Source: Streptosporangiaceae bacterium | GTDB lineage: Bacteria > Actinomycetota > Actinomycetes > Streptosporangiales > Streptosporangiaceae | NCBI GenBank assembly: GCA_030041195.1 | Contig: JASHOI010000274.1 | Location: 1 to 9,346, forward strand | Direction: 5' to 3' | DNA length: 9,346 nucleotides | Shown here: positions 2,512-9,310 of the stretch, piece after piece | Numbering within the stretch: the first letter of the stretch is position 1 | How the letters are laid out: each line of letters starts with the position of its first letter | Translations under genes and position numbers: made by a program | The notes under the pieces: generated by a model | Told to the model about the DNA's origin: nothing | The model's database searches: none | The model's input: the letters and a program-made list of their open reading frames with translations, nothing else

Positions 2512-3351
2512 ATGGCACCAACCTGGCTGACGGCCCTGGCGTGGGTCTCCCTGTCGATCTGCTTCGCCTGCGCGGGGGTCATCGGCTACGACATCGCCGG
2601 GAACCGGCGCCGGCAGCCGATGGGCGTGATGAACGCGGTCTACCCGATCACCGCGCTGTACCTCGGCCCGCTGGCGCTGGCGTTCTACTGGCGGTGGGCA
2701 CGGGCCGCCCCCCGGCCGGCGGCACCGGCGTCGGTGAGCCAGGAATCCATGCCCCGGCCGGCGATGGCACCGGCGGGCGACGGCGGGCGGGCGCCCGGCG
2801 GCCAGTCCGCGGATCACGGTATGGCCGGCGGGCACGGGGCAGATCACGCGGGCGCGCCCGCGCCGCCGGGCGAGCGGGGCAAGCGGGGCGAACGGGGCAA
2901 GCCCTGGTGGGCCGTGATGGCCACCGAGGTGAGTCACTGCGGTTCCGGGTGTGTCCTCGGCGACGTGATCTCCGAGTTCGTGATCTTCGCGCTGGCGCTC
3001 ACGATCGCCGGCACCACCCTGTGGGCCGAGTACGCCGGCGACTACATCCTCGCGCTGGCGCTTGGCATCATGTTCCAGTACTTCGCGATCGCCCCGATGC
3101 GCGGCCTGGGCTTCAGGGACGGGCTGCGGGCGGCCGCGAAGGCGGACGTGATATCGCTGACCGCGTTCGAGGTCGGCCTGTTCGGCTGGATGGCGGTGAT
3201 GACGTTCGTGCTGTTCCCAGCGCCGCACCAGCTGATGCCGAACGTGGCCGCGTTCTGGCTGCTCATGCAGATCGGCATGATCATCGGGTTCGCCACCTCC
3301 TGGCCGGCCAACGTCTGGCTGGTCAGGAGGGGCATCAAGGTTCCGATGTGA
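2512..3351 (+). CDS. DUF4396 (PF14342) multi-pass membrane protein with His/Met-rich loop
   Basis: A 279-residue integral membrane protein. Hydrophobic segments lie at about 7-26, 41-62, 152-171, 177-196, 217-236 and 247-266. The DUF4396 hallmarks are SHCGSGCVLGD (141-151), just before the third helix, and the C-terminal TSWPANVWLVRRGIK (262-276). The family has no settled function; the paired cysteines with the adjacent histidine suggest metal or redox chemistry, but that is inference. Between helices 2 and 3 is an insert (about 70-130) rich in Pro, Gly and Ala, with His102, His108 and His112 and Met80, Met85 and Met104, then four collagen-like Gly-X-Y triplets (GERGKRGERGKP). The His/Met cluster resembles a copper- or other metal-binding loop. 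The gene converges on the small membrane protein gene, with 10 bases between stops. An extended -10 promoter lies upstream, so it is probably a single-gene unit. Confidence 0.88.
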   Translation: MAPTWLTALAWVSLSICFACAGVIGYDIAGNRRRQPMGVMNAVYPITALYLGPLALAFYWRWARAAPRPAAPASVSQESMPRPAMAPAGDGGRAPGGQSADHGMAGGHGADHAGAPAPPGERGKRGERGKPWWAVMATEVSHCGSGCVLGDVISEFVIFALALTIAGTTLWAEYAGDYILALALGIMFQYFAIAPMRGLGFRDGLRAAAKADVISLTAFEVGLFGWMAVMTFVLFPAPHQLMPNVAAFWLLMQIGMIIGFATSWPANVWLVRRGIKVPM

Positions 3352-3361
3352 GCTTTGGCCG

Positions 3362-3967
3362 TCAGCTCCGGGCCTGGGCGACGGGGTTCTCGCCGTGCGT
3401 GACGCGCTCCGGGTAGCTCTTGGAGAACCTCAGCATGTACAGGATGATCACGGCCGGGACGGCCAGGCCCAGCAGCAGGTCGGGCAGGCGGCGGGTGGTG
3501 TGCCCGTTGATGGCCGCGGCCGCGACGCGGGAGACGCCCAGCGCGAAGATCGCCACGCCCCAGGCGGTGCTGAGCACCCGGTTGATCTTCTTGAACGTCG
3601 GCGATCCCCAGTAGGCCTGCGGGGTGCTTTCCCTCGCGAACTGCTCGGTGAACGGCACGACCGGGATCAGAGCCAGGATGACCAGCCCGAGCACGAGGCC
3701 AACACCCGAGCCGGCCCACGTGGCCAGCCACCGGTCGTCGTGGGTGCCTAGCGTGAAACCGAGAACGGCCAGCACGGCGAACAGAACGAACGAGCAGATG
3801 TTGAGGATCTTGGGCGGCCAGACCGGGTGGCTCAAGGCCATCGCGACGAGCGCGGCGACGGCCGCGACGAGCGCGGCGACGCCGATGTAGTGGTGCGGCA
3901 GGAGGCGGGACAGGAACGAGAACAGGATCAGCGGGGCGAAGGCGAGGATGAGCGTCAGTGGTTTCAT
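3362..3967 (-). CDS. Small six-helix membrane protein, function unknown (YciB/septation-protein-like topology)
   Basis: From the ATG at 3967 the protein is 201 residues with hydrophobic segments at about 3-20, 27-45, 54-73, 86-104, 132-152 and 162-179, so it is integral to the cytoplasmic membrane. The N-terminal half (LAFAPLILFSFLSRLLP, then two Ala/Val-rich helices) recalls YciB/IspZ-type proteins, but this is a resemblance of layout, not a firm family match. A polar loop between helices 4 and 5 holds PFTEQFARESTPQAYWGSP (105-123), the most distinctive stretch. No catalytic motif is recognised. An ATG at 4003 would add 12 Pro/Arg-rich residues, but it lacks a ribosome site and would put the inverted repeat at 4002-4019 across the start. 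The gene lies 52 bases behind the LAL regulator on the same strand. It has its own predicted promoter and a copy of the regulon operator, suggesting control by that regulator. Confidence 0.8.
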   Translation of the reverse strand: MKPLTLILAFAPLILFSFLSRLLPHHYIGVAALVAAVAALVAMALSHPVWPPKILNICSFVLFAVLAVLGFTLGTHDDRWLATWAGSGVGLVLGLVILALIPVVPFTEQFARESTPQAYWGSPTFKKINRVLSTAWGVAIFALGVSRVAAAAINGHTTRRLPDLLLGLAVPAVIILYMLRFSKSYPERVTHGENPVAQARS

Positions 3968-3974
3968 ACCTCTG

Positions 3975-3980
3975 AACCTA
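3975..3980 (-). promoter_or_regulatory. Predicted -10 element for the small membrane protein gene
   Basis: On the minus strand TAGGTT fits TANNNT and lies seven bases before the ATG at 3967, again consistent with a leaderless message. An AGAGG directly before the ATG is too close to serve as a normal ribosome site. The 18-bp inverted repeat at 4002-4019 ends 21 bases upstream, occupying the -35 region and suggesting activator-dependent initiation. Confidence 0.5.
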
Positions 3981-4001
3981 GGAACGCCCGGCGGGCGAGA
4001 C

Positions 4002-4019
4002 ATCAGCCGAGTGGCGGAT
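4002..4019 (-). promoter_or_regulatory. Operator candidate 1: 18-bp inverted repeat before the membrane protein gene
   Basis: The + strand reads ATCAGCCGAGTGGCGGAT, a dyad of the form ATCnGCCnnnnGGCnGAT with all six outer base pairs matched. It begins directly next to the stop codon of the LAL regulator gene (4020-4022) and is centred about 43 bases upstream of the predicted start of the membrane-protein transcript. A sister site lies at 8061-8078; over a 22-base stretch (3998-4019 and 8057-8078) the two agree at 19 positions. The position and symmetry fit a LuxR-type dimer acting as activator. That the adjacent LAL protein is the binder is inference. Confidence 0.5.
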
Positions 4020-6731
4020 CTAAGCCTGGGCGAAGCGCGCGATCTCGACCCTGGACCGCAGGCCGGTCTTCTGCAGGATGTGCGACACGTGGGTCTGCAC
4101 CGTGCGCGGCGAGACGAACATCCGGGTCCCGATCTCCCGGTTGGTCAGCCCGTCGCGTACCAGTTCGGCGATCCTGACCTCGGTCACGGTCAGGCTCGCC
4201 CAGCCGAAGGCGGCCTCCCGGTGCGCCTCGCGCGACCCCCGGCGGATGCCCAGCGCGCGCATGCGCCCCAGCGCGCGGTTCCGGTCGGGGACGGCGCGCA
4301 TCCGCTGATATCCGGCCAGGGCCGCGTCGAGCGCTTCGACGGCGCGGCCGCGGTCTCCGGCTGCCGCGGCGGCGGCCGCCAGTTCCTCGCGGGCGAACGC
4401 CTCTGCCGCGTGACGGCCGGTTCCGCCGAGATCCGCGGCCGCCTCGTCGAGCGCGTCCGGGTCGGCGGCCAGCATTCCGCGCACCAGGCGGACCGCGTCG
4501 GGCGGGCACAGCGCCGCCACGTCGTCGCCGATCTGGCCGGCCAGCCGCCGGTCCATCCCGGCGAGCGCGACCCTGGTCACGTCGGGTGCCAGGTCGGCGG
4601 CCCAGCGGTCGGGATGGCTGCGGGCCGCCGACCACAGCGTCCTGGCCAGTGTGGCCGCCTCGCGGATCGACCCCTCGGCCTCGAGCACCGCCAGCTCGGC
4701 CAGGCCGGGACGGTCGTGCCCGAACTGCAGCGGCAGGCCGCGGTGCCGGAACGACTCCAGCCGGGCGCGCGCCGCCGCGGTGTCGCCGCGGTGGGCGTCG
4801 ATGTAGGACCGCATGCCCACCGGGTGTGAGATCCAGCCGGTGCTGGTCTCCTCGGCGCGCTCCAGCGCCGCGTCCAGTTCGGCCACGGCGCCGTCCCAGT
4901 CGCCGGCCACGAACGCGATCCCCCCGGCGGCGAACCCGAGGAACGCGTCGACCCACTCGGCCTCCCGTTCCGCGCTGAGCCGCCGGGTGCGGTCGATGGC
5001 GGCCTTCGCCGCCGACGGCCCGGAACTGGCCAGCTCGAACATGGCGGGCAGCACGAGCATGGACGACCGGTACCGGAACGCCCCCGGGTCCAGCTGGATT
5101 TCCTCGCTGGCCCGCAGGTACTCCAGCGCCGCGTCCGCCCGTCCGGACAGGAACGCGGCGGTGGCAGACGTTGCCAGCACAGAACACTGCGCGCCCCGAT
5201 CGCCAGCGGAAACGAAACGAGCCATCATCGCGTCCAGCTCGGCAGCGGGCTGGATCCGGCCGGCCAGGGCCAGCAGCCACGCCCGGGTCGTCTCCAGCTG
5301 GCGGAGAGCGGCTCCCGGCAGCCCGGCGATGCCCATGGTCTGGTCGATCGCCGCGAGGGCCGCCGCGACGTCCCCCCGGTTCGCCAGGGAGCGGATCATG
5401 ACCACCTGCATCTGGAGCGCCACCGCGGGATCGGTGATCGCGGCGATGCGCTGGCGGATCAGCGTTTCCGCCGACTGACCCCGGCCACGGAGGAACAGGG
5501 CCTGGGCGTGGTCGAGCAGCATCGGCTCGGGCAGGTCGGAGCCGCTGATCGCCGCGACGTCGTCGAGCAGGTCGGCGGTGACCTCGGGCGCGTAGCCGCG
5601 GGTCCCCGCGACGGCCTCCTGCAGAGCGGTCATGAGCGCCGGATCGGGGCCGTCGGTGGCCGCCCGCAGCAGATGGTCCGCGATGAGGGTCGGCCGGTAG
5701 CCAGCGGCCGCGAGCACCCCCGCGGTACGCCGGTGAATGTCGCGCCGCGTCGCTTCCGGCAGCTCGCCATAGGCGACCTCGCGGAAGAGGTCGTGCGCGA
5801 AACCAACCGTGCCCGCTGGCTCGCGCCGGACCAGGCCCGACGATATGGCCTGCTCGATCAGCTCGCCGAGCGCGCCGGCCAAGCCCGGCAGCATTCCGGC
5901 CAGGTCGTCGACGCCGACATCCGTCCCCCACACCGCCATGACCGCGAGCACCTCAAAGATGGGCTCGTCCAGCTGTTTGATCTGGGCCCTGATCACCTCG
6001 TCGAGCCCGGTGGCCTGCAGTTCGAGCTCGAATTTGGCCTCGATCGAGTCCGGCGCTCCGGTCGCGAGCGCGCCGGCCTTCTCGTAGGCGCCCAGCAATT
6101 CGCCCACGAAAAGCGGATTCCCGGCCGCCAGCTCCAAGATGCGGCGCAGCAGGGGGCCGGGCCACCGGCCGGTCCGGGCGAACACCATGCGCTCGGCCAT
6201 CATCGGGCCCATCGGCGGCAGCACCAGCCGGGTCCGCGCCTGCCCGACGAGCGTGGTCAGCTGCTCGCGGGACGGGCTGGGCCGCGTGGTGACCAGCACG
6301 GCCAGCGGCAGGCTCCGGCTCGCCCACACCAGCCGGCGGAGCAGGGTGAGCGAGCCCGCGTCGAGGTTGTGGGCATCGTCGACCCACAGCACCACCGGGC
6401 CATCGGCGCATAGTTCGTCGACATGGTCGAAGACCGCGTCGCTCGGGTCGCCGGGAGGCGGCGCGGCGCCGAGCAGCTGAGCGGCGATCGCGAACGGGTC
6501 ATTGCGGCGGCCCGGCTCGCCCGCCCCGCGCAGGACCTTCGCCGTGCCGGGCACGATCGAATCCAGGATCTCCCGGGCCAGAAACGTCTTGCCGATGCCC
6601 GGTGCGCCCTCAACGACGATGCTTGCCCCGGCCGGGGTGAGCTGCTGAACCACTCCGGACACCAGGTCGTGTGCGGCCCGTGCCACGGTGCCACGGTCGG
6701 ATGGCAGTGACCGGCCGGCCACGTCCGCCAT
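4020..6731 (-). CDS. LAL-type LuxR family transcriptional regulator (large ATP-binding)
   Basis: A 903-residue protein with the full LAL architecture. An N-terminal STAND/AAA-type ATPase has Walker A GAPGIGKT (42-49) and Walker B VVLWVDDAH (113-121). A helical region with AAGNPLFVGEL follows, and further on the HDLFREVAYGELP segment typical of LAL proteins. The long Ala/Leu-rich helical middle resembles TPR-like sensor regions. The C-terminal LuxR helix-turn-helix (847-903) includes LTxxE, GLTNREIG and the recognition helix SPRTVQTHVSHIL. LAL proteins are usually cytoplasmic activators that respond to a small ligand or partner through the ATPase module; the ligand here is unknown. The ATG at 6731 is 19 bases after the hydrolase stop, so the gene may be cotranscribed with the hydrolase, but a TANNNT hexamer in the gap offers a second, leaderless start. 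No Shine-Dalgarno is visible. Its likely targets are the inverted repeats at 4002-4019 and 8061-8078. Confidence 0.93.
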   Translation of the reverse strand: MADVAGRSLPSDRGTVARAAHDLVSGVVQQLTPAGASIVVEGAPGIGKTFLAREILDSIVPGTAKVLRGAGEPGRRNDPFAIAAQLLGAAPPPGDPSDAVFDHVDELCADGPVVLWVDDAHNLDAGSLTLLRRLVWASRSLPLAVLVTTRPSPSREQLTTLVGQARTRLVLPPMGPMMAERMVFARTGRWPGPLLRRILELAAGNPLFVGELLGAYEKAGALATGAPDSIEAKFELELQATGLDEVIRAQIKQLDEPIFEVLAVMAVWGTDVGVDDLAGMLPGLAGALGELIEQAISSGLVRREPAGTVGFAHDLFREVAYGELPEATRRDIHRRTAGVLAAAGYRPTLIADHLLRAATDGPDPALMTALQEAVAGTRGYAPEVTADLLDDVAAISGSDLPEPMLLDHAQALFLRGRGQSAETLIRQRIAAITDPAVALQMQVVMIRSLANRGDVAAALAAIDQTMGIAGLPGAALRQLETTRAWLLALAGRIQPAAELDAMMARFVSAGDRGAQCSVLATSATAAFLSGRADAALEYLRASEEIQLDPGAFRYRSSMLVLPAMFELASSGPSAAKAAIDRTRRLSAEREAEWVDAFLGFAAGGIAFVAGDWDGAVAELDAALERAEETSTGWISHPVGMRSYIDAHRGDTAAARARLESFRHRGLPLQFGHDRPGLAELAVLEAEGSIREAATLARTLWSAARSHPDRWAADLAPDVTRVALAGMDRRLAGQIGDDVAALCPPDAVRLVRGMLAADPDALDEAAADLGGTGRHAAEAFAREELAAAAAAAGDRGRAVEALDAALAGYQRMRAVPDRNRALGRMRALGIRRGSREAHREAAFGWASLTVTEVRIAELVRDGLTNREIGTRMFVSPRTVQTHVSHILQKTGLRSRVEIARFAQA

Positions 6732-6737
6732 TTGCCA

Positions 6738-6743
6738 AGCGTA
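6738..6743 (-). promoter_or_regulatory. Possible -10 element for a leaderless LAL-regulator transcript
   Basis: TACGCT on the minus strand fits TANNNT and is followed by six bases (TGGCAA) and the ATG at 6731. It lies in the 19-base gap after the hydrolase gene. The -35 position falls in hydrolase coding sequence and is GC-rich without a match, so this may be an internal promoter that supplies basal regulator, or a coincidence within an operon. Confidence 0.35.
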
Positions 6744-6750
6744 ACTCCGG

Positions 6751-7977
6751 TCATCCAGACCGGGCCGGGAGATGATCCGCCAGCCAGTCGAGCATCTGGG
6801 TGTGCGTCAGCTGGCGCCCGGTCGGCTGGCAGTGGAAGTTCGCGCCATCCGCCTGCGTGAACTCGATGATCTTCTTCTCTCCCGGCAGCAGGTCGTAGAG
6901 CTGCCGCGGCTGGCCGGGGAAGAACTGCTCGTCGTCCGGGTCCAGGATCAGCAGCGGCGTCGTGATCTGGCCGGCCACGTCCCGAACCTGGTACTTCTGC
7001 ACGTCGGTGTACAGGTCGAACCAGTCGGTCATGCCGTACGGCCGGCTCCGGAACGCCAGCGTCCTGGCCATCTGCGGATTGCTGTCCACCCCTGCCTGCA
7101 TGGCGGCGTTGAACGCGTCCTTCTGGCCGGAGCGCAGCAGGTCCGCCATTGCCTCGGGCAGGTGCGTGGTCCATCCCGCCGACACGTCGACCACCCCCGG
7201 GTCGGCCACCGCCGCGACCATCCGGCGCTCGAACGCGACCGCCCGGGTGATCCAGTAACCGCCCTGGCTGATCCCGTAGCCGGTCAGCGCGGACGCGTCC
7301 ACGTCGGGCCGTTCCACCAGGGCGTCGATGACCGGCGTGAGCACCGCCTCCCAGTCGAACCGGAACGGCACGCCGCGCTCGAAGAGCATCGACTGCTGGC
7401 CCGGGCCGTCGAAAACAAAGGCGTTCCATCCCCGCTGCAGCGCCTCGGCCGCGCCGTAGCCCAGCAGCCCCGGCAGCGTGCCGTCGCTGCCGTTGGTGAC
7501 GACGAATGTGGGCCTGGCCGCGCCGGTGGCGTCCGGGCGAAGCAGGTAGCCCGGCAGCGTGGTCCCCTCATAGGGGACCTGCATGCGCAGGTAGCAGCCC
7601 TCCGAGGCGTCGATGACGCCTTCCCAGCACTTGCGGCCCTCCCGGAACGTGGGCAGCAGCACGCTCTGGTCGGCCAGCCCGTCGACGACGGCCAGCGCCT
7701 TGCCGTAGTACTCCGACGCGGCCAGCAGCGCCCAGCGGGCCGTCCGGCTGTGCCCGCTGCGGGCGGCCTGCTGCCCTCGCGCGGCCAGGTCGGCGGCCGT
7801 CGCCGTCCACGCGTCGAACCAGCTCTGCCGGTCGCCGTCGGTGATCCGGTCGAGGGTGGCCAGCACGAACCCGACATCGCCAATCCCGCTGGCCGCGGCG
7901 CCAAGGACGATCCGCGACTCGTAATCGAAGTCCGCGTCCGCGAAGAAGCCTCCGGCCGAGGTCCTGCTGGCACTCAT
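6751..7977 (-). CDS. Alpha/beta hydrolase of the 2,6-dihydroxypseudooxynicotine hydrolase / FrsA-like group
   Basis: A 408-residue protein. An N-terminal helical cap of roughly 130 residues (with SWFDAWTATAADLAARG at 52-68 and a Tyr pair in EYYGKA) precedes the core hydrolase fold. The oxyanion-side loop is TNGSDGTLP (161-169). The nucleophile is Ser237 in GYGISQGG (233-240). The acid is most likely Asp349 in LDPDDEQFFPG (345-355), and the base is His382 in DGANFHCQ (377-384), giving a complete triad. This cap-plus-core layout matches the group that includes the C-C bond hydrolase of bacterial nicotine breakdown and dipeptidyl-peptidase-like hydrolases; the substrate here is not known. No signal peptide is seen, so it should be cytoplasmic. 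The ATG at 7977 has a strong ribosome site (7985-7996). The gene is divergent from the FAD monooxygenase, followed after 19 bases by the LAL regulator, and has an operator candidate 83 bases upstream. Confidence 0.9.
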   Translation of the reverse strand: MSASRTSAGGFFADADFDYESRIVLGAAASGIGDVGFVLATLDRITDGDRQSWFDAWTATAADLAARGQQAARSGHSRTARWALLAASEYYGKALAVVDGLADQSVLLPTFREGRKCWEGVIDASEGCYLRMQVPYEGTTLPGYLLRPDATGAARPTFVVTNGSDGTLPGLLGYGAAEALQRGWNAFVFDGPGQQSMLFERGVPFRFDWEAVLTPVIDALVERPDVDASALTGYGISQGGYWITRAVAFERRMVAAVADPGVVDVSAGWTTHLPEAMADLLRSGQKDAFNAAMQAGVDSNPQMARTLAFRSRPYGMTDWFDLYTDVQKYQVRDVAGQITTPLLILDPDDEQFFPGQPRQLYDLLPGEKKIIEFTQADGANFHCQPTGRQLTHTQMLDWLADHLPARSG

Positions 7978-7984
7978 GCGACAT

Positions 7985-7996
7985 CCCTTCCTTCCC
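7985..7996 (-). promoter_or_regulatory. Strong ribosome binding site deciding the hydrolase start
   Basis: The minus strand reads GGGAAGGAAGGG, ending seven bases before the ATG at 7977. This purine-rich site fixes the start and argues against a 160-residue N-terminal extension that stays open upstream. An out-of-frame ATG lies at 7984, between site and start. Confidence 0.75.
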
Positions 7997-8060
7997 GATC
8001 GGCAGCCAGCCCGTTGCTCACCGCGTCTCGCCCATCCTCGGCAGCGCGCCCAGGGAAGAC

Positions 8061-8078
8061 ATCGGCCATGTGGCGGAT
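8061..8078. promoter_or_regulatory. Operator candidate 2: 18-bp inverted repeat midway between hydrolase and monooxygenase
   Basis: The + strand reads ATCGGCCATGTGGCGGAT, of the same form ATCnGCCnnnnGGCnGAT as the site at 4002-4019. Its centre (8069.5) is exactly halfway between the hydrolase start at 7977 and the monooxygenase start at 8162. Rightwards, 18 bases separate it from TAGCCT (8097-8102). Leftwards, 21 bases separate it from a weaker GAGGAT (8039-8034 on the minus strand), the same spacing as at the sister site. Both predicted transcripts would start about 40-43 bases from its centre, so one bound dimer could activate both genes. Confidence 0.55.
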
Positions 8079-8096
8079 GAGCCCAAGGACGCGCAC

Positions 8097-8102
8097 TAGC
8101 CT
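8097..8102 (+). promoter_or_regulatory. Predicted -10 element for the FAD monooxygenase gene
   Basis: TAGCCT fits TANNNT and would start transcription near 8109, giving a leader of about 53 bases that contains the GAGGG ribosome site (8149-8153). No -35 hexamer is visible; the inverted repeat at 8061-8078 lies across that region, as expected for an activator-dependent promoter. Confidence 0.4.
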
Positions 8103-8161
8103 GAACGTGACGTGGCGGGGATCCCCGGCCATTCGCGAGACTCGAGACGAGGGCGAAAAGC

Positions 8162-9310
8162 GTGGCGCTGCGGGCGGTGGTCGTCGGCGGCGGGATCGGC
8201 GGGACCGCTGCGGCGGTCGCGCTGGCGCGGGCCGGGATCGACGTCGCGGTGTACGAGCAGGCGGAGCGGCTGGGCGAGGTCGGCGCGGGAGTTTCGCTGG
8301 CGCCGAACGGGCTGCGGATGCTGGACCGGCTCGGGGTCGCCGCGGGGATTGAGCGGCTGGGCGCGCGGCACGTGTCCACCGAGCTCTTGCTGTCCGACGG
8401 GCGGCCCGCGCGGCACGAGCCGCAGCAGTTCGCGCGCGCAGGCCACAACGTGGGCATTCACCGCGCCGACCTGCTCGAGCTGCTCGTGGCCGAGCTGCCG
8501 CCGGGCACGGTGCGGACCGGGCATCGGTGCACCGGCCTGCGCGAGGACGCCGGCGGCGCCGTCGTCGGCTTCGGCAACGGGACGACGGCCAGGGCGGACG
8601 TGGTGATCGGGGCGGACGGCATCCACTCCGTGCTGCGCGGGTTCGTCGTCGCGCCCGCGCAACCCGTATTTTCCGGTGTGGTGGCCTACCGCGGGCTGGT
8701 GCCGTGCCCGGGCGGGTACCCGGCCGGCACGATGCGCATGTGGGTCGGTGAGAGCAAGCACTTCCTGGTGTTTCCGGTGCGCGCCGGGCGGCTGCTCAAC
8801 TACGTGGGATTCGTCCCGTCGGGCACCTCGGTCCGGGAGTCGTGGTCGGCGCCCGGAGACCCGGTCGCACTGGCCGCGCACTTCACGGGCTGGGATCCGG
8901 TCATCGCGGAGGTCATCGCGGCGATCAGCGGGCCGGGTGGCAGCGGCTTCCAGTGGGGTATGTACGACCGCGCGCCGCTGCCGCGGTGGAGCAGCGGACG
9001 GCTGACGCTGCTCGGCGACGCGGCGCACCCGATGCTGCCGCACCTGGGCCAGGGCGTAAACCAGGCCCTCGAGGACGCGGTATCGCTGGCCACGCTGCTC
9101 GGCGCCGTCACGAGCCCGGCGGGGGTGCCGCCGGCCCTGGCCGCGTACCAGGAGCTGCGCCGGGACCGCACCGCGCGGGTCCAGCTCGGCTCACGGCGCA
9201 ATGGCGCCGGCTACGACAGCTCCGGAAGCCAGCTCACCGACCGGCGGTGGATCTACGAGTACGACGCGTGGGCCGAGGCAGCGGCGCTCGCTGGCGCTCG
9301 GGTTCGTTAA
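8162..9310 (+). CDS. FAD-dependent aromatic monooxygenase, salicylate hydroxylase-like (PF01494)
   Basis: A 382-residue single-component flavoprotein hydroxylase of normal length. It has the dinucleotide-binding GGGIGG (9-14) followed by Glu32 of the first beta-alpha-beta unit, the DG motif in GADGIHS (150-156) that contacts FAD and NAD(P)H, and the GD motif in LLGDAAHPMLPHLGQG (283-298). The C-terminal YEYDAW (366-371) is also common in salicylate hydroxylase-like proteins. Enzymes of this group add one oxygen to an aromatic ring using NAD(P)H and oxygen, in the cytoplasm; the ring acted on here cannot be read from sequence. The GTG start is supported by GAGGG (8149-8153) with an eight-base spacer. 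The gene is divergent from the alpha/beta hydrolase and shares the inverted-repeat operator at 8061-8078 with it, which suggests consecutive steps in one pathway. Its TAA stop overlaps a possible convergent gene. Confidence 0.9.
   Translation: MALRAVVVGGGIGGTAAAVALARAGIDVAVYEQAERLGEVGAGVSLAPNGLRMLDRLGVAAGIERLGARHVSTELLLSDGRPARHEPQQFARAGHNVGIHRADLLELLVAELPPGTVRTGHRCTGLREDAGGAVVGFGNGTTARADVVIGADGIHSVLRGFVVAPAQPVFSGVVAYRGLVPCPGGYPAGTMRMWVGESKHFLVFPVRAGRLLNYVGFVPSGTSVRESWSAPGDPVALAAHFTGWDPVIAEVIAAISGPGGSGFQWGMYDRAPLPRWSSGRLTLLGDAAHPMLPHLGQGVNQALEDAVSLATLLGAVTSPAGVPPALAAYQELRRDRTARVQLGSRRNGAGYDSSGSQLTDRRWIYEYDAWAEAAALAGARVR

Follow-up and report, generated by a model that had tools for sequence, protein, structure and literature searches.

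The window analyzed here (the whole stretch of 9,346 nucleotides from a Streptosporangiaceae bacterium) has a G+C content of 72%, and seven genes were called in it. These encode an RCC1-repeat protein, a PF04672 methyltransferase, a DUF4396 protein, a small membrane protein, a LAL regulator, an alpha/beta hydrolase, and an FAD monooxygenase. The RCC1-repeat gene (185-1522) has a GTG start and, judged by eye, a possible lipoprotein-type N terminus, and the DUF4396 protein (2512-3351) carries a long low-complexity N-terminal region ahead of its domain. No Pfam match was found for the small membrane protein. Organism names accompanied few of the listed relatives and were either Streptosporangiaceae bacterium or Trebonia sp.

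Table 1. Genes, dyads, and putative promoter elements in the part of the window under study
Feature	Position	Strand	Remarks
Dyad A, ATCGGCCATGTGGCGGAT	8061..8078	none	Intergenic; hydrolase and FAD monooxygenase genes diverge from it
Dyad B, ATCAGCCGAGTGGCGGAT	4002..4019	none	Downstream of the LAL stop codon, ahead of the membrane-gene start
Alpha/beta hydrolase, 408 aa, first gene of operon	6751..7977	-	PF00326; solved relatives 3fnb, 2jbw, 8qd1
LAL regulator, 903 aa, AAA ATPase domain and C-terminal LuxR (GerE) HTH	4020..6731	-	PF00196, PF13401, PF13191
Small protein, membrane protein by sequence, weakly like VC0807 family	3362..3967	-	24.8 bits vs curated cutoff of 65
FAD monooxygenase, salicylate/3-hydroxybenzoate hydroxylase type	8162..9310	+	PF01494; NCBIfam matches below cutoffs
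-10-like hexamer GAGGAT, hydrolase-LAL operon	8034..8039	-	Putative; 30.5 bases from dyad A centre
-10-like hexamer TAGCCT, FAD monooxygenase	8097..8102	+	Putative; 27.5 bases from dyad A centre
-10-like hexamer TAGGTT, membrane gene	3975..3980	-	Putative; 30.5 bases from dyad B centre

As the initial annotation had claimed, ATCNGCCNNNNGGCNGAT occurs exactly twice in the window, at 4002-4019 (dyad B) and 8061-8078 (dyad A), and both copies are intergenic, dyad B within the 52 bases between the LAL stop and the membrane-gene start and dyad A within the 184 bases separating the hydrolase and FAD starts. Its placement of dyad A midway between the two divergent start codons also proved exact, with the centre 92.0 bases from each, and the agreement that it gave for a 22-base stretch was recovered, with 19 of 22 bases identical between 8057-8078 and 3998-4019. 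Such identity is not rare alone, as 18 overlapping 22-mer pairs in the window reach 19. With up to three mismatches allowed, ATCNGCCNNNNGGCNGAT matched 15 times in the window (8.73 expected; 6 of 200 shuffles reach 15), and all 13 of the nonexact matches had three. The bases outside the seven called genes number 679 of 9,346 (7% of the window), and both dyads lie among them.

A pair of dyads agreeing at 19 of 22 bases, present once in the real window, appeared in 7% of 300 simulated windows (first-order Markov sequences; a dyad being at least six of nine pairs in 18 bases). Two strict dyads of the dyad A/B shape with identical arms were found in 6.7% of the Markov simulations. Taken alone, the dyad pair is thus only mildly surprising, and the argument has to rest on position and conservation. 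From composition, about 0.001 copies of the motif were expected per window, a figure that overstates the surprise because the motif was derived from dyads A and B themselves. Across 100 genomes given as relatives of Trebonia kvetii (G001), the bare 12-letter motif, without flanks, had 120 copies in about 565 Mb (∼0.21 per Mb, a low frequency that overstates the surprise in the same way), spread over 56 genomes. Its predicted absence from coding sequence elsewhere did not hold for this bare form: at 25 of 30 loci inspected from the 120 copies it lay in a coding-like frame, as called with a rough third-position rule on the two best frames, and five of the 25 were borderline. The reversed motif was rarer in the same genomes, although it contains TAG and is therefore an unfair control. 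The 12 letters by themselves would predict poorly; flanks and promoter spacing would be needed. No exact copy was present in the 24 collection loci described below together with loci L025 and L026 (416,587 bases), and none with fewer than two mismatches in L025 to L032. A perfect 22-base palindrome extending the motif (L059 position 1501; G073 contig 286) was dropped, as the contig stretch examined held no LAL, hydrolase, or FAD relative.

Each of the three genes or operons next to a dyad is preceded by a -10-like hexamer. When the first base of the hexamer was taken as -12 and its distance to the dyad centre measured, the implied dyad centres were -42.5 for both the membrane gene and the hydrolase and -39.5 for the FAD monooxygenase. 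A sigma-70 scan of 3900-8300 found no promoter, so we infer the transcription starts; the inverted repeats themselves are present, and their position near -42 depends on the putative hexamers. TANNNT is found at 8 of 1,348 noncoding positions and is not matched by GAGGAT; its occurrence near the expected place at two of the three promoters may be called suggestive and no more. The hexamer TAGGTT would make the membrane-gene transcript nearly leaderless. For the hydrolase-LAL operon, the spacing of dyad A from the putative -10 element would suit class II activation.

LAL regulators are common in actinobacteria. The one encoded here, the only regulator in the window, has the N-terminal ATP-binding domain (PF13401/PF13191, residues 34 to 145), the C-terminal LuxR HTH (PF00196, residues 846 to 901 of 903), and the length of about 900 aa that define membership of this group, and the domain search found neither a receiver domain match nor an autoinducer-binding domain. 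By sequence, the solved structures nearest to its HTH are DevR and NarL. All 120 listed LAL proteins, including that of the window, contain SPRTVQTHVSHI, which we take to include the recognition helix, and the residue before it is V in 114 and I in 6. The hydrolase matched SMU_737, 2,6-dihydroxypseudooxynicotine hydrolase, and Ayg1; the latter two cleave C-C bonds. The FAD protein resembles 3-hydroxybenzoate and salicylate hydroxylases, with scores below the curated cutoffs. The signal of the LAL regulator might be an aromatic compound or a ketone on which the hydrolase acts, but this is a guess.

Genome searches with the LAL and hydrolase proteins, which scored no more than the few best first-look candidates of each genome, reached no orthologue. 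Alignment of the LAL protein against a genome collection gave 24 loci among the matches listed, at only 24 to 44% identity; at an E value of ≤1e−60, this protein had no match among 60 relatives or 200 family genomes around T. kvetii, and the LALs in G001 and G002 were only about 31% identical. For the hydrolase, 6 of 200 family genomes had matches at ≤1e−80 (41 to 53% identity) and 4 of 345 class genomes at ≤1e−110 (45 to 48%), and in overlapping sets of 297 order, 341 family, and 345 order genomes there were none at ≤1e−120. Viral contigs held no relative of the hydrolase or LAL, and plasmids carried only hydrolases below 60% identity. As operator DNA could consequently not be aligned directly, relatives' proteins with an N terminus running upstream were read instead, codon by codon, through codon degeneracy of the annotated extensions.

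Among the 119 hydrolase relatives listed, N-terminal extensions of at least 15 residues were present in nine and of at least 30 residues in seven, and the two shorter ones (15 or more but under 30 residues) stop short of the dyad. All seven of the longer extensions carry [MV][AT]DV[SFC] 90 to 93 bases before the hydrolase start (92 in the window), at the place of ATGGCNGATGTCT, the hydrolase-side half of dyad A plus the flank common to dyads A and B. The GGC triplet of this half-site is possible in six of the seven; P0028 has T for A, which breaks it, so that the half-site is kept without a forced change in six and with one change in one. Five of the seven extensions begin at a codon within the dyad, and a start codon there was thus needed for them to be listed. 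The remaining two, P0055 and P0113, span the whole dyad. In P0055 (IRHMAD) it fits with no mismatches 102 bases from the hydrolase start (101 in the window), and in P0113 (VRRMAD) it fits with one mismatch; over 91,788 background offsets in 60 proteins, there were 0 fits with no mismatches and 24 with one. Residue shuffles of the extension reached the observed fit anywhere in 11 of 2,000 cases for P0055 and 98 of 2,000 for P0113, and a second place in the P0055 extension fits the dyad with one mismatch. In the P0113 entry, a PF06736 protein and the upstream-read hydrolase are annotated as one protein of 661 aa, by fusion or by annotation. These readings speak for an operator-like dyad A, preserved at least in its hydrolase-side half, before the hydrolase-LAL operon.

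Contigs of equal size, a proxy for the same contig, were compared among the 119 relatives listed for each protein (longest contig per cluster). The hydrolase and LAL relatives listed had at least 19 such contigs in common, including those of three of the seven half-site keepers (P0028, P0043, and P0115), and no contig of the listed FAD relatives was equal in size to one of either set. The hydrolase-LAL pair thus appears to be a long-standing unit, which the FAD gene seems to adjoin only locally. The evidence for dyad B comes from two of the LAL relatives with C-terminal extensions: that of P0217 fits dyad B with one mismatch, as do 58 of 2,000 residue shuffles, and that of P0157 has three mismatches and does not fit. 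Extensions of the FAD relatives (8 to 27 aa) are too short to reach a dyad, and the spacing of the FAD hexamer (27.5) differs from that of the hydrolase and the membrane gene (30.5). As read through protein extensions, conservation of the dyad upstream of relatives amounts to the half-site in all seven readable cases for the hydrolase and to one ambiguous and one negative case for the membrane gene. Of the regulon of three targets envisaged in the initial annotation, the hydrolase-LAL operon is the part that gained support; dyad B would be a less certain second target before the membrane gene, and control of the FAD monooxygenase by dyad A is the weakest part, since this neighbor seems not to be conserved.

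On balance, we consider it reasonably likely that dyad A serves the hydrolase-LAL operon as a conserved operator, probably bound by the operon's own LAL as an activator. We infer the LAL as binder and the sign of its effect, as with the transcription starts above. A LAL dimer would bind dyad A through its NarL/LuxR-type HTH; centred near -42.5, the site would overlap the -35 region, and the LAL could activate its own operon by class II activation, a case of positive autoregulation. Through dyad B the LAL would control the downstream membrane gene in the same way, and the divergent FAD monooxygenase gene may be a further target of dyad A.

The same conservation could be coding in origin: translation from the ATG in dyad A would then yield a leader peptide or a hydrolase with an extended N terminus, and the resemblance to a dyad would be a by-product. 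On the minus strand, a 31-codon open reading frame (7974-8069) does run from this ATG to a stop overlapping the hydrolase start (ATGA), and the matching stretch is annotated as the hydrolase N terminus in seven relatives. In six relatives and the window, spacer columns 7, 12, 15, and 20 to 23 are invariant beside columns 3 and 4, so the constraint is not confined to the dyad; column 12 falls in the -10-like hexamer. However, in the window this reading frame is not that of the hydrolase, and G+C occupies 20 of its 32 third positions compared with 92% in genes (P = 4e−6), which makes coding constraint in the window unlikely. In addition, 19 of the 22 bases recur at dyad B ahead of an unrelated gene, and 110 of the 119 listed hydrolase relatives have no extension of at least 15 residues. 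We therefore regard a coding origin as improbable. That the dyads are a chance pair without function is more improbable still: the frequency of such pairs in Markov windows and of the bare motif in other genomes speaks for it, whereas both copies fall in the small noncoding fraction of the window at promoter-like spacing, and half of dyad A is kept at the same distance in relatives.

Dyads of this length are bound by several regulator families, and the sequence of a dyad does not name its binder. Both dyads might thus be operators for another transcription factor encoded elsewhere, such as a TetR- or GntR-type repressor, with the LAL using another sequence; MalT, also a LAL, has a short, asymmetric box (PMC9628970). 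Against this, the window encodes no other regulator, three of the seven half-site relatives share an equal-sized contig with a LAL relative, and the spacing suits an activator that overlaps the -35 region; we judge a different binder to be unlikely, if less so than a coding origin.

If the LAL is indeed the activator acting at dyad A, a broader picture can be drawn, which we offer tentatively and hold to be possible rather than probable. An LAL family of uncultured soil actinobacteria would have a defined symmetric operator (ATCNGCCNNNNGGCNGAT core plus GATGTCT flank) near -42.5. By binding there, the LAL would turn on its own hydrolase-LAL operon, the membrane gene and, in this genome, also the newly adjoined FAD monooxygenase. 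Such a protein would be a self-activating sensor for a hydroxylase-hydrolase pathway of an aromatic compound and would have a predictable binding consensus. Mechanistically, this would be textbook gene control of a sort ordinary in bacteria. With a motif linked to a single LAL-hydrolase pair that has many metagenomic relatives, the targets could be predicted and, from them, the substrate. The titles and abstract openings returned by a literature search contained no description of the motif or the operon.

Several known systems resemble this arrangement in part. DevR and NarL, the solved proteins closest in sequence to the HTH of the LAL, bind dyads of inverted heptamers; their binding sequence differs from the window dyads, and the window LAL lacks the receiver domain match. 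MalT and SCO6993 are, like the window LAL, large proteins with an N-terminal ATP-binding domain and a C-terminal LuxR HTH (PMC9628970). SCO6993 is described as binding palindromes and its own promoter, and as a repressor with a binding consensus that could not be predicted (PMC9628970). The window dyads are symmetric, unlike the MalT box, and activation is proposed here where SCO6993 represses. The lux box of LuxR-type activators, an inverted repeat centred at -42.5 (PMC3376562), offers a parallel in geometry, as an 18- to 20-bp inverted repeat with a LuxR-type HTH as its binder; for the window dyads, both the position near -42.5 and the binder are predicted. It differs in sequence, and the regulator here is instead a LAL with an ATPase domain.
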